Assembly: GCA_016868015.1 (NCBI GenBank)
Contig: VGIF01000014.1
Coordinates: 1 to 37,379, forward strand
Direction of reading: 5' to 3'
From: Betaproteobacteria bacterium
GTDB taxonomy: Bacteria > Pseudomonadota > Gammaproteobacteria > Burkholderiales > SG8-41
DNA: 37,379 nucleotides
Made by a program: the position numbers and the translations under genes
Notes under the pieces: generated by a model
Database searches by the model: none
What the model was told of the DNA's origin: nothing
The model's input: only the letters and a program-made list of their open reading frames with translations
In this document: piece by piece, positions 10,836 to 18,507 of the stretch
How positions within the stretch are numbered: position 1 is the stretch's first letter
Layout of the letters: every line of letters begins with the position of its first letter

Positions 10836-13399
10836 TCGATTTGATTGCGTAACTGATACAGCAGTTTCAGCGCGGCGCGCGGCGTAAGCGCATCCGGGTC
10901 GGTCGCACGCAATGCGTTAATGATGGGATGCTCCAGCGCGGCCTCAGGTTCCCGCGCGGCACGCGCCTGCGTAAACAAATCACCTTGCCCGCCGGCGCTG
11001 AGCGCTTTTTCTTCCAGCGCCTGCAAATTACGCCGCGCCGCGCGTATCACATTCGCCGGCACGCCGGCGAGTTGCGCCACTTGTAAACCGTAGCTTTGAT
11101 TGGCGGGGCCTTCCTCGACGCTGTGCAAAAAAACGATGTGGTCCTTGTGCTCCACCGCGCCGAAGTGCACGTTGGCTACTTCCTTGAATTTGAGCGCGAG
11201 CTCGGTCAGCTCGAAATAGTGGGTGGCAAACAGCGTATAGCAGCGGCATTTTTCAACCAGGTGCCGTGCGATCGCACCGGCCAGCGCCAGCCCATCGTAA
11301 GTCGAGGTGCCGCGGCCGATTTCATCCATAAGCACCAGGCTCTTGGGTGTGGCGTGATGCAAAATGTACGCCGCCTCGGTCATCTCCACCATGAATGTCG
11401 AGCGCCCGCCCGCGAGATCGTCGGCGGCGCCAATGCGCGTGAAAATTTGATCCACCGGGCCGATGCGCGCGCGCGTCGCCGGCACAAACGAACCGCAGTG
11501 GGCGAGCAGCACGATGATCGCCACTTGTCGCATGTAAGTCGATTTGCCGCCCATGTTGGGGCCGGTGATCAGCAACATTTGCCGGGTGGGCGAGAGCTGC
11601 GCGTCGTTGGGGACGAAGCGATCGACCTGCGCCTGCACCACCGGGTGACGGCCGCCTTCGATAGCAATGGCGGCGTCGTCGCAAAACTGCGGCGCGCACC
11701 AGTCGAGCGCGGCGGCGCGCTCGGCAAAAGTGGCGAGCAAATCGAGCTCGGCGAGCGCCGCCGCCGCTTGCTGCAATGCCGGGATGTGCGGCGCAAGGCT
11801 GTCGAGTAGCGCGTCATAGAGCAATTTTTCACGGGCGAGTGCGCGATCTTGCGCGGACAGCGCCTTGTCTTCGAAGGTTTTGAGTTCAGGCGTGATGTAA
11901 CGCTCGGCGTTTTTGAGCGTTTGCCGGCGGCGGTAATCGTCTGGCACCTTGTCGCTTTGCGCGCGCGTGACCTCAATGTAAAAGCCGTGCACGCGGTTGT
12001 ATTCCACCTTGAGATTGGCAATGCCGCTGCGCGCTTTTTCGCGTGCTTCCAGCGCCAGCAAAAATTCGCCGCAGTTGTTTTGAATGCCGCGCAACTCGTC
12101 AAGTTCGGCATCGTAGCCGCCGGCGATGACGCCGCCTTCGCGGATCAGCGCGGCGGGTTCGGCTTGAATCGCGGCGGTGAGTCGGGCCGCCACGGCCCCT
12201 GGCACGCCCAGCCGATGCGAGAGAAACTTAAGGTGTGCGCTGGCGCCGCCGCCGAGCAAGCCTTGCGCCGCCGGCAGTTGTTTCAAGGTGTCGCGCAAGC
12301 CCGACAGATCGCGCGGGCGCGCGGTTTTTAAGGCGAGCCGTGCGGTAATGCGTTCGACGTCCACGAAGGTGCGCAGCAACGCCTGCACGCGTTCGTGGCC
12401 GCTGGTTTCGATCAACTCACCGATGGCGTCGTGCCGCGCGACCAGGGTTTCGCGATGCGTCAACGGATGATGCAGCGCGTGGCGCAGCCGGCGGCTGCCC
12501 ATGCTGGTGGCGCAGCGATCGAGCAGCGACAACAAGGTCGGCGCCGCTTCGCCGCGGATGGTTTCCGTGAGCTCCAGGTTGCGCCGCGTGGCCGGGTCCA
12601 TGCGCACCCACTCGCTTGATTGCTCCACCGAGAGTGCGGTGAGATGCGCGATGGCCGCGCCTTGCGTGGCCTTGACGAAATCGAGCAGCGCGTTGGCCGC
12701 GCCCACCGCGATGCTCAATGCCTCGGCGCCAAAACCGGTCAGATCGAGCGTGCCGAAGTGCTTACACAGGTTGCGGCGCGCGGCATCGAATTCGAATGGC
12801 CACGGCGGCACGCGCTTCACCGGCATTTTCCAGTGCGCCGGCAGGCTTTGCGCCAAACTGTCGGGCGCCAAAATTTCCGCCGGGCGCAGGCGCTCGATTT
12901 CGGCATCGAGATTGCGCCACGCGGTCTCCAGCACCGCGAAGCGCCCGGAGGCGAGCGACAGCCACGCAATGCCCAGCGTGTCGCGCGCGCGGTTTAACGC
13001 GAGCACGATGTTGTCGCGCTTGTCGTCGAGCAGCGCCGCGTCGGTCAGCGTCCCCGGCGTGACGATACGCATGACCTTGCGCTCGACCGGGCCTTTGGAG
13101 GCCGCCGGGTCGCCGATTTGTTCGCAGATCGCCACCGATTCGCCGAGCTTCACCAGCTTGGCGAGGTATTGCTCAGCGGCGTGAAACGGCACGCCCGCCA
13201 TTTTGATCGGCACGCCGGCGGAAGCACCGCGGCTGGTCAACGTGATGTCGAGCAACTTCGCCGCGCGCTCGGCATCGTCATAAAACAGCTCGTAAAAATC
13301 GCCCATGCGGTAGAACAGCAGCTTGTCCGCGTGCTGCGCTTTGATGCGCAGATACTGCTGCATCATAGGCGTATGGTTGCTGAAACTGGGGTCGTTCAA
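10829..13399 (-). CDS. mutS: DNA mismatch repair protein MutS
   Basis: An 856-residue protein (E. coli 853) that recognises mismatches and recruits MutL. The N-terminal mismatch-binding Phe35-Tyr-Glu37 lies in [12 protein letters not shown]. The connector, core and clamp follow. The ATPase has a Walker [10 protein letters not shown] with Lys619, a Walker B near [13 protein letters not shown] and the H-loop LFATHYFEL. The start is TTG 13399, preceded by the purine-rich AAGAGAAGAG. The first ATG (13366) would cut into the conserved HTPMMQQYL segment, so the TTG is preferred. No frameshift is seen. The integrase gene starts 158 bases away in the opposite direction, so the native mutS promoter may have been changed by that insertion. 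Confidence 0.97.
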
Positions 13400-13557: not shown

Positions 13558-14799
13558 ATGAAGAAACCGCCACCCATGCTCACCCCTCGCATTATCGCCG
13601 ACCTGCGTTCAGGAGACGAGTGCGCCGATCCCGATTACCCGGGATTGAGGGTGCGCCACACGAATGCAGCCCGAGTGTTTTTCTACCGCTACCGGGCCAG
13701 TGATGGCGCACTGCGCGAGATCAAGCTCGGCGAGTTTGGTCCCATGACCCTCGCGGAAGCACGCAAGGCGCTGGGACGCTTGAAGCTCGAACGCGAGCGC
13801 GGGTTCGACCCGCAGTTGGAGAAGCAGCAGGCACGCGCGGAAGCGAGACGACATCGCGAAGCCGAGAAACTCGCGCGCTATACGGTGGAGAAAATGGTCG
13901 AGGACTACATCGCTGAGCGCCTGAGCAAACAGAAGCGCGGTGACGAGGGCGCACGGCTGCTGCGTCGCGAACTGCTCTCCAAGCTCGGCGATAGCCCTGC
14001 GGCGGCGGTGACACGACGCGAACTGCAGGACGAAGTGATCCGGCCCATGCTGAATCGCGCCCCACGGTGTGGCACTTACCTGCTTGGCCGCATTCGCTGC
14101 GCGTACACGCACGCCGCGGAACAGGGACGTCTCCCCGACGACTTCGTGTTTCCGACGCTGGGCATCAAAGGTGCGCCGCAGGTGCGCAGAAAGCGCGTCT
14201 TCAGCGACAGCGAGCTCGCGACGTTCGTGCGTTGGCTGCCGCGCAGTCCCTACAGCCAGACCGTGCGAGATGCGCTGGCGCTGGTGCTCTTCACCGGCTG
14301 CCGCTCGGGCGAAGTGGTCGCGGCAATGTGGCGAGACATCGACTTGGAGCGCGCGGTATGGACGATCCGCGAAACGAAAAACGGCGAGCCGCACGACGTC
14401 ATGCTTTCGCGTCAGGCGATCGACCTGCTGAAAGTGCGCCGGGCGCTGCATGATGTCTTCGTCTTTCCTTCACCGATGGACAGATACCACATCGCGCAGA
14501 AAGCGCTCGGCCTTGCGCAATACGAGGCACGCAAGAAGAAGGAGGGGAAGCCGCGCGCCGATCCGATCGAGCTACCGTGGACAGTTCACGACCTGCGTCG
14601 CACGGTGGCCACGGGGTTGGCGAAGCTCGGTTACCTTCGTGTCGTGCAGGACCGCATCCTCAATCACGTCGACAGTTCGGTGAGCGCCATCTACGACCGG
14701 CATCGCTACGACGCCGAGGCGCGGGTGTGGCTGCAGAAGTGGGCGGATTATCTCGACGCGCTGACCGTGAGCAACGTGGTGCCGCTGCGCGCCGCGTGA
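13558..14799 (+). CDS. int: Tyrosine recombinase/integrase with DUF4102-type arm domain
   Basis: A 413-residue phage- or island-type integrase. The N-terminal part (about 10-90) is the DUF4102 arm-binding domain (IADLRSGDECADPDYPGLRVR, IKLGEFGPMTLAEARKAL). A core-binding domain follows at about 105-200. The catalytic domain shows Arg249 (GCRSGE), His344 and Arg347 (HDLRRT), His370 (LNHVD) and the nucleophile Tyr379 (IYDRH), so it appears intact. It catalyses site-specific integration and excision of the element that brought the AbiE pair. ATG 13558 is at the start of the open frame; an ATG six codons later is possible. Confidence 0.93.
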   Translation: MKKPPPMLTPRIIADLRSGDECADPDYPGLRVRHTNAARVFFYRYRASDGALREIKLGEFGPMTLAEARKALGRLKLERERGFDPQLEKQQARAEARRHREAEKLARYTVEKMVEDYIAERLSKQKRGDEGARLLRRELLSKLGDSPAAAVTRRELQDEVIRPMLNRAPRCGTYLLGRIRCAYTHAAEQGRLPDDFVFPTLGIKGAPQVRRKRVFSDSELATFVRWLPRSPYSQTVRDALALVLFTGCRSGEVVAAMWRDIDLERAVWTIRETKNGEPHDVMLSRQAIDLLKVRRALHDVFVFPSPMDRYHIAQKALGLAQYEARKKKEGKPRADPIELPWTVHDLRRTVATGLAKLGYLRVVQDRILNHVDSSVSAIYDRHRYDAEARVWLQKWADYLDALTVSNVVPLRAA

Positions 14800-15010: not shown

Positions 15011-15766
15011 ATGGGAACTTCAAGACATTCGCTAATCAAGCAGCTCCAGACCAGCCTCCCACGCGGAGCGCCATTCGATGTGGGCGCGCTCGCGCGCTTG
15101 GGGGTGTCCGCGAAGCTGGCGGCCCACTATGCCGCGACGGGTTGGCTGGTCCGGCTGGCGCAGGGCGTGTACGCCTTTCCCGCCGATGAACTGAACGCAC
15201 ACGCGACGACCAAGTTCCTGCAGACCCGTGTCGCCGGCCTGCACGTCGCAGGCAAGAGCGCGCTTGCCATACACGGCGTGCGCCACAATCTGGCCACGCG
15301 CGAGCAGTGGGTGCTCTGGGGCGATGTGCGCTTCGCGCTGCCTGCATGGTTCACCACGCGTTTTCCCGCGCGTTACGTGTCGGCCCAGCTGTTCGATTGG
15401 CCGGATGAGGCGCTGGCCGCAAAGAGCCTGACTACGCCACCCGACGTGACTGAAGGCTTGCGCGTGTCGGTACCCGAGCGCGCGCTGCTCGAACTGCTCT
15501 ACGACGTGGGCACCCATCAGGGGCTGGAAGAAGCGCGCAACCTGTTCGAGAGCCTGAGCAATCCGCGCAAGGAGATACTCGGCCGTCTGCTCGCCTGTTG
15601 CACCAGCGTCAAGACGGTGCGCCTCTTCCTGACCTGGGCGCGCGAGACAAAGTTGGTGGACGTCGCCGCCCTCCAGCAGCACTACACCTTGCCGGTCGGC
15701 AGCGACAAGCGTTGGATGACCCGCCTGAAAGACGGCACCTTGTTGAGCCTGAAACCGCATGGATAA
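15011..15766 (+). CDS. abiEi: AbiEi-family antitoxin of a type IV toxin-antitoxin system
   Basis: A 251-residue protein. The N-terminal 60 residues form a winged-helix pattern (FDVGALARLGVSAKLAAHYAATGWLVRLAQGVYAF) typical of AbiEi antitoxins. The rest has the AbiEi C-terminal sequence (GKSALAIHGVRHNL, VSVPERALLELLYDV, NPRKEILGRLLACC). It should repress the operon and counter the AbiEii toxin without binding it directly. Its stop overlaps the abiEii start by eight bases, so the two are translationally coupled. The upstream region has matching inverted repeats. GGTAAG about ten bases before ATG 15011 is a weak ribosome site. Confidence 0.9.
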   Translation: MGTSRHSLIKQLQTSLPRGAPFDVGALARLGVSAKLAAHYAATGWLVRLAQGVYAFPADELNAHATTKFLQTRVAGLHVAGKSALAIHGVRHNLATREQWVLWGDVRFALPAWFTTRFPARYVSAQLFDWPDEALAAKSLTTPPDVTEGLRVSVPERALLELLYDVGTHQGLEEARNLFESLSNPRKEILGRLLACCTSVKTVRLFLTWARETKLVDVAALQQHYTLPVGSDKRWMTRLKDGTLLSLKPHG

Positions 15767-16673
15767 GGTTTATGCCGATGCCGTGCGCTTGCTGCTGGCC
15801 GCCGCGCCTGAGGTGTTCGCCAACGACATCTTCGCGATGAAGGGTGGCACCGCCATCAACCTTTTCGTGCATGACATGCCGCGCCTGTCGGTCGATATCG
15901 ACGTGGTCTACACCCCCTGGCAAACGCCGCGCGAGCAGGCGCTGGCGGCCATCGCCGGCGAAATCGAAGCTATCGCCGGGCGGCTTGCCAAACGAGGCAT
16001 GCGCACGCGTAAGGTGGCAAGCAAGGATGTTGGCGAAACGAAACTGCTGATCGAGCGTGACGGCGATCAGGTAAAGGTCGAAGTCAACGCGGTTTTTCGC
16101 GGAACAGTCTTGCTGGTGGAGCGGCGCAGCCTGACGTCCAGGACGGCCAATATGTTCGGCGCCGAACTCGAAGTGCCTTTGCTCGCCACGGCCGAACTCT
16201 ACGGCAGCAAGCTCGTGGCCGCGATGGACCGGCAACATCCCCGCGATTTGTTCGACGTATGGCAGATGTTTATCTCCGACGGTCTGTCCGACGCGACCGT
16301 TGAGTGCTTCGTTACCTATTTGGCCGGTCACAACCGGCCCACCCATGAAGTCCTGTTCGGCAACGACAAAGACATCGCCGACGAATACCGGAATACCTTT
16401 GTTGGGATGACTGTGGAACCGGTCAGCTTCGATACGCTGCTGGAAACGCGCGCGCGTCTGCGCGCGGAACTGCCGCAACGGCTGACCGGCGCGCAGCGTA
16501 ATTTCCTGACAGGCCTTTCGCGCGCGCAACCCGACTGGACCTTGCTGCAATGCCCGCATGCCGCCGAATTGCCCGCACTGCGCTGGAAGCTCGCGAACCT
16601 CCAGACATTCAGCAAGCGCCGCCCGGCGGATTTTGAACAGCAAGCCAGGGCACTGGAAATCAGACTGAGCTGA
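15759..16673 (+). CDS. abiEii: AbiEii-family nucleotidyltransferase toxin
   Basis: A 304-residue DNA polymerase-beta-type nucleotidyltransferase. Motif I is GGTAIN (29-34) with the metal-binding pair Asp46 and Asp48 in LSVDIDVV. The later motif KLVAAMDRQHPRDLFDV (about 151-167) is the AbiEii motif III/IV. A helical C-terminus follows. AbiEii toxins arrest growth (members of the family add nucleotides to tRNA) and give abortive infection against phage. All key residues are present, so it should be active. It is coupled to abiEi by the ATG/TAA overlap. No terminator is obvious in the 118 bases to the convergent hybrid gene. Confidence 0.92.
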   Translation: MDKVYADAVRLLLAAAPEVFANDIFAMKGGTAINLFVHDMPRLSVDIDVVYTPWQTPREQALAAIAGEIEAIAGRLAKRGMRTRKVASKDVGETKLLIERDGDQVKVEVNAVFRGTVLLVERRSLTSRTANMFGAELEVPLLATAELYGSKLVAAMDRQHPRDLFDVWQMFISDGLSDATVECFVTYLAGHNRPTHEVLFGNDKDIADEYRNTFVGMTVEPVSFDTLLETRARLRAELPQRLTGAQRNFLTGLSRAQPDWTLLQCPHAAELPALRWKLANLQTFSKRRPADFEQQARALEIRLS

Positions 16674-16791: not shown

Positions 16792-18201
16792 TCACGCACC
16801 TGCCGTCAATTGACCAAAGAGCTGTTCCATTCCTCGAAGATGGCGAAGTCGATCGGCATACGCAATTGCTTCTTCCCGTCTCCCGTGTGCCGCGAGCTTC
16901 GTCAGCAAAGACTTCAACCTATCCTGGAAGTCGAATGTCGGAACGAAGGTGTCAAGAACCTTCCCGAGCACAGCGCTGACATTTTCGGGGCTGATGTCCG
17001 CGAGGCGCTCAAGCTCTTCGATGAAATCGTCGGCGTCGTAACCGATGTGGACGTAAGGGGCCACCGCCAGCAGCCATTCCCGCTCGTGCTCACCAATGGT
17101 CTTGATGTAGCAGCTTAGGCGGCCGAGTTTGGAAAGCAGCTTTTCTGGTGGCTCTGCGGCGCCCCGACTCCAAGTCACGCATCGTGCCCAGAAAGAAAGG
17201 ATTCTCTCCACTTGAGATTTCGATAGGTCCTGATTGCTTACGCTCCAGAAAAATGTGGTGGCCTGCTCAAGATCATCGATTCGCCCAACTTCAAAGAGGT
17301 AGGAGAATCGGGGGCCGTCAAGTTCCTCGTCTCCCCACAGGAAAGCGAGGGCGATTCGTTCGACAATCTTTTCCCGCGCGTGCCGGCCTTTGGCCTCTTG
17401 TCGTAGCCCGAAGTCTAGGATTCCGCCTTCGGCCAGCAGCGCATATACGGGGCGTGTCGCAGGCGCGTAGGCGAGACCCTCGAGGGCGCAGTGAAAGTTG
17501 TTCAGAAAATCGAATGGGAAAACGCCCTTGAGGTTACCCTGCAACCAATCGCGATCGATGAAATCAATGTTGGCTATGTAGTTCGCAGCCAATGTGGAAA
17601 ATTCGTAGTTCGCGTTCTCGCATTTGGCGATTTCTTGGTCAAACAGCGGCTTCATCTGCGCCCACGCGCCGGCATGTCCGCCACAGGGATCCGGCGTCAG
17701 CGCGGCCGCACCCGGTTTCATGCTCAATGTGTAAGTCGCGAGCCCGTGCTGATCTTGCAGCTGCGGCACCGCTTGCAGCATCACGTTTTGTGCGCCCGCG
17801 TCCGGGAACGTCACGTCGTGCGTGACTTGCCAGGGATTGCGGTTGGGCATGTGGTTTAACGCGGCGATCGCTGCGGCGTCGTGCTGTGCGCCGGTATCGG
17901 GGCGCGAACGAATGATCAGACAGGTTAGGCTGCTGTCGTCGGCGGCCGTGAACGGGCCGTACGGTGTGTGCGGCCGCGAAAAATGCACGGTATTGGTCTT
18001 GACCTCACGCCGCCCGATTTTGCCCCTGCCGCCGAGCATGATCTGATACTGCGGGACGTCGTGGAAATGCGGCGTGGAGAGCCGGCCGGGTGCGAACGTC
18101 ACCAGCGCGGCGAGCGGCAGCTGCGGATTGCCGCGTTTGCCCAGCAAGGGCGTGGTGACGTTTCTGGAGCCATCGACGCCGGTCCTGATGGCCTGATTCA
18201 C
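16792..18201 (-). CDS. Hybrid ORF: cupin N-terminus joined in frame to a foreign helical C-terminus
   Basis: A 469-residue frame of two unlike parts. Residues 1 to about 170 are a cupin-type domain (APGRLSTPHFHDVPQYQIMLGGRGKIG, His45 and His47, then VHFSRPHTPYGPF). From about residue 175 the text changes to an all-helical sequence rich in Glu, Phe, Trp and Leu (MKPLFDQEIAKCENANYEF, LWGDEELDGPRFSYLFEVGRI, LLTKLAAHGRREEAIAYADRL). This resembles the C-terminal tail of large defence-type ATPases, though I cannot name the family surely. The DNA of the second part (about 16792-17680) is visibly lower in GC than the first. The start is GTG 18201. I read it as a native cupin gene cut at the edge of the integrase/AbiE island and fused to a leftover gene end. 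Whether the product is functional is unknown. Confidence 0.6.
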   Translation of the reverse strand: MNQAIRTGVDGSRNVTTPLLGKRGNPQLPLAALVTFAPGRLSTPHFHDVPQYQIMLGGRGKIGRREVKTNTVHFSRPHTPYGPFTAADDSSLTCLIIRSRPDTGAQHDAAAIAALNHMPNRNPWQVTHDVTFPDAGAQNVMLQAVPQLQDQHGLATYTLSMKPGAAALTPDPCGGHAGAWAQMKPLFDQEIAKCENANYEFSTLAANYIANIDFIDRDWLQGNLKGVFPFDFLNNFHCALEGLAYAPATRPVYALLAEGGILDFGLRQEAKGRHAREKIVERIALAFLWGDEELDGPRFSYLFEVGRIDDLEQATTFFWSVSNQDLSKSQVERILSFWARCVTWSRGAAEPPEKLLSKLGRLSCYIKTIGEHEREWLLAVAPYVHIGYDADDFIEELERLADISPENVSAVLGKVLDTFVPTFDFQDRLKSLLTKLAAHGRREEAIAYADRLRHLRGMEQLFGQLTAGA

Positions 18202-18507
18202 TTTCGCATCGTCATACGCAATTACCGTTGCCGTTTCGTTCTCCGGTGTGTGAGATTGCCTTTGGTCGCGCCCATCATGGTGTCAGCCACGGTTCATAAA
18301 AAAGCGCAATAGTATAGTCGCAGTTCGTTGTCCAAGCGGTGTACGAATTCGACTCAGCCAAAGCCCCGCCGCACGCAACAACACTCGTGGGAATGAGCCT
18401 GTCAATGTCGGCAGCGCCCTGACCCGGCCACGCAAAAAACTTCCGCGTGTGTTGCGCCGGATGCGGCGCATCGGTCAGCCGATCATGCATCGGCGGCGCC
18501 GTCCGCG

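Follow-up and report, generated by a model that had tools for sequence, protein, structure and literature searches.

When an open reading frame runs without interruption over the edge of a mobile island, it must be asked whether it encodes a new protein or joins two broken genes by accident. The frame that raises this question here lies on a contig that was analysed at its full length (37,379 nucleotides, hereafter the window), which belongs to a 97%-complete draft genome of 366 contigs. On the minus strand, it extends from a GTG start at 18201 to a stop codon at 16792-16794 and encodes 469 amino acids with no internal stop, and from stop to stop the frame is open over 496 codons. The first-pass annotation, made from the letters alone, had described a cupin of about 170 residues followed by an unrelated remainder, and this two-part make-up was borne out, i.e., cupin orthologues match residues 1-172 and Dsr1-like proteins match from about residue 173. 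We consider the hybrid frame to be, with high probability, a chimera of two broken genes that a deletion made by chance. Its parts are the following (genomes are labelled G, loci L, and contigs C):

17686 to 18234, minus strand: remaining 5' part (183 codons from the native start) of a bicupin-rubredoxin gene, holding barrel one and the beginning of barrel two
17682 to 17687, minus strand: join of the two gene fragments, where cupin DNA similarity ends and Dsr1-like protein similarity begins
16795 to 17685, minus strand: C-terminal end of a Dsr1-like (SIR2-partner) gene, about 297 codons to the natural C-terminus, recognized by PADLOC and by identity to the proteins at L041 and L085

Taken as a whole, the hybrid frame had no match in Pfam (E up to 1) or NCBIfam (E up to 0.01), and no relative among the PDB sequences; a search of phage records gave no match. 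The two-part architecture was not seen a second time, neither among the matches listed from 100 genomes including its own, with the whole frame as the query, nor when the tail or a relative of it was searched against 399 genomes of the order and 398 of the phylum. The read-through product of 469 residues, which had been expected to be a new domain combination, is therefore new in the sense that no other genome searched has this architecture, while a functional two-domain protein found no support; the combination exists on paper only, because the hybrid has lost its native start codon and neither half retains the essentials of its family. An old architecture shared with other bacteria was also considered and was dropped, since the searches of 100, 399 and 398 genomes gave no second case.

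The front half is 83-88% identical at the protein level to orthologues in seven of the 13 congeners and 73-74% identical to that of G014 from a related genus, and over residues 1-172 the identity is 85-88% in five congeners. Matches to the cupin part occur in at least 50 of 100 genomes (own included), and none of the matches listed from these 100 genomes outside the window goes beyond residue 181. The uninterrupted gene was found in seven relatives: of the eight close orthologues, seven are complete with 307-308 residues from the native start, and the eighth, in G004, is interrupted at the contig end. The C-terminus of the G002 orthologue is a rubredoxin domain (PF00301, E 8e-18), and the other six full orthologues have a C-terminal sequence similar to this copy, the one on which the domain test was made. 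The orthologue at L034:9688-10614 on the minus strand is a bicupin protein with a C-terminal rubredoxin domain, and a literature search for cupin-rubredoxin fusions returned no paper on such proteins, judging from the titles.

The cupin identity of the front half is weak by sequence and clear by predicted fold. Pfam Cupin_2 scores 13.5 bits in the full G002 orthologue, below the cut-off given by its gathering score of 27.2, and it is absent from the hybrid frame at E<=1; the profile of the cupin part found no relative among the PDB sequences. The structural model built from the window part and 18 relatives (pLDDT 83) had 224 matches in the PDB at E<=0.001, mostly cupins among the 50 matches listed, and VIA-align superposed it on 2qdr (Z 13.8, rmsd 3.9, 156 aligned) and on the cupin 4e2g (Z 12.3, rmsd 1.8, 93 aligned). 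The first ~108 residues of the model form one complete barrel, so the window would retain barrel one and the start of a presumed barrel two; the second cupin barrel and the C-terminal rubredoxin are absent from the hybrid.

The rear half belongs to a relative of Dsr1 (defence-associated sirtuin 1), in line with the earlier suggestion of a tail left from a large defence protein whose main part was deleted. The PADLOC profile PDLC04166 matches residues 182-444 of the frame (E 8.6e-26) at profile positions 934-1201 of 1227, and the NCBIfam Dsr1 equivalog NF041818 gave no match at E 0.01. The tail is 56% identical (167/297) to the end of a 946-residue ORF at L041 from a deltaproteobacterial MAG and 47.5% identical to the end of a 940-residue ORF at L085 from G386, with alignments that extend to the natural C-termini of both proteins. 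These two partner proteins cover about positions 307-312 to 1205-1207 of the Dsr1 profile, and directly before each of them lies a SIR2 ORF that covers positions 4 to 277-279. Relatives of the tail thus match nearly the whole profile with the SIR2 and partner ORFs taken together, whereas the tail matches the C-terminal 22% of it, the hybrid having neither the SIR2 part nor two thirds of the helical part. Matches to the tail were found in three of the 399 genomes of the order (its own, G386 and G403); in the phylum sample, the query with the L041 protein matched one of 398 genomes, which was its own. The search of plasmids gave one distant match and that of viral contigs no relative.

The remainder had been called helical, and the predicted structure of the tail (pLDDT 86.6) is indeed all helix. 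In the fold comparison, the matches listed include generic HEAT/ARM-like repeats, importins, and others, with Z up to 12.0, a range that according to the comparison tool is common for helical repeats; DSR2 is not among the matches listed, and the profile of the tail had one chance match in the PDB (E 0.38). Like the C-terminal sensor region of DSR2 as PMC10973363 presents it, the tail is all-helical and forms the C-terminus of a defence protein linked to SIR2; it differs from that region in having no sequence match to a solved chain and only generic repeats among the fold matches listed. PMC10973363 also describes the helical C-terminal domain of DSR2 as sensing the phage tail tube protein and controlling the SIR2 domain, and by this analogy the lost Dsr1-like protein would have been a sensor.

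The boundary between the halves is sharp. Cupin DNA similarity ends at 17685-17687 in six of the eight relatives (at 17712 in G003 and at the contig end in G004), and Dsr1-like similarity starts near a GGH motif, with search alignments that reach 17694-17697 and overlap the join by a few codons, which together place the join at 17682-17687. This is the upper end of the range 17640-17690 named by the first-pass annotation, and it lies, as was also claimed there, on the right-hand side of the segment with the integrase and AbiE. GC content is 0.639 in the cupin part and 0.558 in the tail, and GC3 is 0.781 and 0.633, respectively. The lower GC attributed to the remainder is accordingly real and limited to the tail: the GC3 values of the integrase (0.773), AbiEi (0.802), and AbiEii (0.748) resemble those of the adjacent host genes, so that the foreign look is confined to the Dsr1-like tail. 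No useful repeat or microhomology was seen at the join, and the direct repeats between 13200 and 20000 fall into six short families with no convincing attachment-site pair.

A contig that joins unrelated stretches at this point through an error of assembly or binning has to be considered for a 366-contig draft, all the more as no second sequence with this join was found (its 32-base pattern had no match among viral contigs). We regard such an artefact as improbable. There is no repeat of useful length at the join, and both flanks are typical of the genus, with long mutS matches of 77-80% (68% in G009) and 81-91% DNA identity in the genes to the right of the cupin. Moreover, a false join should leave the 3' half of the cupin gene elsewhere in a genome that is 97% complete, and it was not found there.

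The left side of the hybrid frame is occupied by a segment with the marks of an integrated island:

13356 to 13375, minus strand: mutS-start segment, duplicated in two congeners and present once in the window
13558 to 14799, plus strand: tyrosine integrase (Pfam PF00589 and PF13356)
15011 to 15766, plus strand: AbiEi antitoxin (PADLOC E 5e-62, Pfam PF11459)
15759 to 16673, plus strand: AbiEii toxin, a nucleotidyltransferase (PADLOC E 4.6e-111, Pfam PF08843)

The AbiEi and AbiEii genes are adjacent on the same strand, the distance between the integrase start and the mutS start is about 160 bases, and no tRNA gene was found in the window. Signs that the mutS start serves as an integration site were seen in at least four of the 13 congeners, a count that may miss others since most mutS loci were examined with short flanks. 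Upstream of mutS, G006 has a relative of the integrase at the matching place (35% over 394 residues) and G002 an integrase-start fragment (43% over 63 residues). Two congeners have an additional copy of the mutS start, located about 1.6 kb upstream of the gene in G012 (77% over 66 bases) and on a different contig in G004 (80% over 81 bases). In this genus, the mutS 5' end (13356-13399 in the window, and L050, L055, L079, and L084) resembles an integration hot spot.

In the window, no second mutS-start copy was found with up to three mismatches, a threshold at which an eroded copy could be missed, and in the whole genome with up to two mismatches the segment occurs at one other place, a two-mismatch match on another contig. 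With a single copy in the window, the far end of the island appears to be lost, which is what would be expected if a deletion ran through it. Decay of AbiE islands in the order has left another sign in G071, where relatives of AbiEii on contigs C12 and C16 are fragmented with stops.

The missing parts of both genes are absent from the assembly. The full partner protein as a query finds only the tail in this genome, and the Dsr1 profile, its SIR2 part included, finds no place besides the tail. The orthologous 3' half of the cupin gene was not found either; the full-length query returned the 5' half, diverged paralogues (27-39%), and separate rubredoxins. From this we infer a single deletion. 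An integrase island with AbiE and, on the minus strand, a Dsr1-like pair (SIR2 and a partner of about 940 residues) would have inserted at the mutS 5' end. Later, a single deletion would have removed everything between codon ~640 of the partner gene and codon ~184 of the neighbouring bicupin-rubredoxin gene on the same strand, including the SIR2 gene and the right end of the island, and the break would have fused both genes in frame by chance, an outcome expected in one case of three. The two source genes are oriented as a simple deletion would require. Based on sizes in relatives, at least about 3.2 kb of DNA would have been lost, consisting of ~0.37 kb of the cupin gene, ~0.93 kb of SIR2, and ~1.92 kb of the partner. 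The product would be neither a working cupin-rubredoxin enzyme, its second barrel and rubredoxin being lost, nor an NAD-cleaving defence protein, as it lacks the SIR2 effector and retains one third of the helical partner.

Neither an empty nor an intact form of the island was found among close relatives. Since the genes upstream of mutS and those around the cupin gene are arranged differently in the congeners read, the order before the deletion is a reconstruction. An identical-looking join would be expected if, by illegitimate integration, the end of an island with an already truncated Dsr1-like gene had landed directly inside the cupin gene. We find this very unlikely, since the 3' half of the cupin gene should then lie across the island or nearby and is not found in the genome, and since the integration site of the genus is the mutS start and not the cupin gene.

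Whether the fused frame, once made by a deletion, could be expressed depends on its start region, in which three features were compared with relatives:

18232 to 18234, minus strand: native cupin start position, ACG in the window, ATG in seven and TTG in one of eight relatives
18241 to 18244, minus strand: GGAG, a motif resembling a ribosome-binding site, retained, present in all six congeners of the upstream alignment
18311 to 18316, minus strand: TATACT, a -10-like box, retained, present in five of the six congeners of the upstream alignment and not in G003

The likely native start thus lies 11 codons upstream of the annotated GTG. In the orthologues this GTG corresponds to an internal codon (TTG in G008), and no good ribosome-binding motif is seen for it by eye. 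One E. coli reporter test in PMC6925171 gave ACG 0.1-1.5% of the expression from ATG, and the same paper records pathway strains with ACG starts, so an ACG need not be dead. With ACG at the native start, the hybrid is probably translated poorly.

The substitution patterns give no sign of long relaxed selection in the cupin part. Its dN/dS is 0.09-0.18 against seven relatives and 0.08-0.18 among the relatives, and its private changes (13 silent and 8 amino-acid-changing) do not differ from those in six congeners (47 and 23, p 0.79), a count that omits G014 and G004, the latter not being in the alignment. In the tail, 139 of 293 residues are identical to L085, the same number as between L041 and L085, and 76 of 293 to L086, compared with 83 of 293 between L041 and L086; it has no stop, although about 3.4 are predicted for each 0.1 neutral substitutions per site. 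We read this lack of decay as a recent break, and it would also fit a retained gene.

A retained gene could mean a functional hybrid, with promoter and folded domain coming from the cupin front and the helical tail serving as a binding module, e.g., a decoy or brake for related defence proteins. The frame open over the join, the retained -10-like box and ribosome-binding motif, and the absence of clearly accelerated change in either half speak for it. The native start codon, however, is lost and the second cupin barrel is severed midway, the architecture was found neither among the matches listed from 100 genomes nor in the 399 and 398 genomes of the order and phylum, and no SIR2 partner of the Dsr1 family was found in the genome, the profile matching the tail only; a functional hybrid is thus highly doubtful. 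The slightest chance is given to a hybrid that is transcribed from the cupin promoter and translated from the weak ACG or from a start inside the frame, with the tail acting as a stand-alone decoy for a phage trigger or as an inhibitor of incoming Dsr1-like systems. If the hybrid were expressed and functional, it would be a new protein born through deletion at the edge of a defence island.

Chimeric ORFs and pseudogenes made by deletion at island edges, in which a truncated gene of a mobile island is fused to a truncated host gene, are of a known kind, and the hybrid differs from them in that it happens to stay in frame over 469 codons. With the bicupin-rubredoxin proteins of the congeners it shares 183 codons of the same gene, and it differs from them in its altered start codon and in the defence tail that replaces the second barrel and the rubredoxin.

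The search for relatives of the tail led to a separate observation. At all five close Dsr1-like loci read, SIR2 and its partner are two overlapping ORFs:

L041:3047-6867: two-ORF Dsr1-like locus
L085:7988-11745: two-ORF Dsr1-like locus of G386
L086:8687-12456: two-ORF Dsr1-like locus, split about 190 profile positions further on
L125:2992-6733: two-ORF Dsr1-like locus, on the Vibrio coralliilyticus plasmid NZ_CP009266.1
L115:3-2370: two-ORF Dsr1-like locus, its second ORF cut by the locus end and left out of the profile scan

The SIR2 ORF has 306-329 amino acids (506 at L086) and the partner ORF, where complete, 750-946. Any match to the Dsr1 profile occurs in 31 of the 399 genomes of the order; in 13 of these genomes, frames of 1107-1313 codons have weak matches (E 1e-12 to 4e-4), and this suggests that single-frame Dsr1-like forms also exist in the order. 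DSR1 is described as a single-gene system in PMC10973363, and our literature searches found no split or two-gene form in the collection searched; the two-gene Dsr1-like form may therefore be an undescribed variant. At L085:744-15960 in G386, the Dsr1-like pair lies between genes for a DpdE/DrmD-like helicase and a DrmMI-like methylase on one side and a ZacB-like gene on the other, and could belong to a larger composite defence locus. The two-gene form may be a better lead than the hybrid frame, as separate SIR2 and sensor genes would permit the effector and the sensor to be tested apart.

The deletion-made chimera would be a clear fossil of the decay of a defence island, in which the effector and the island end have been lost while the toxin-antitoxin pair and the integrase remain. 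It is also a warning to annotators that a long open frame over an island edge can be a chance fusion.
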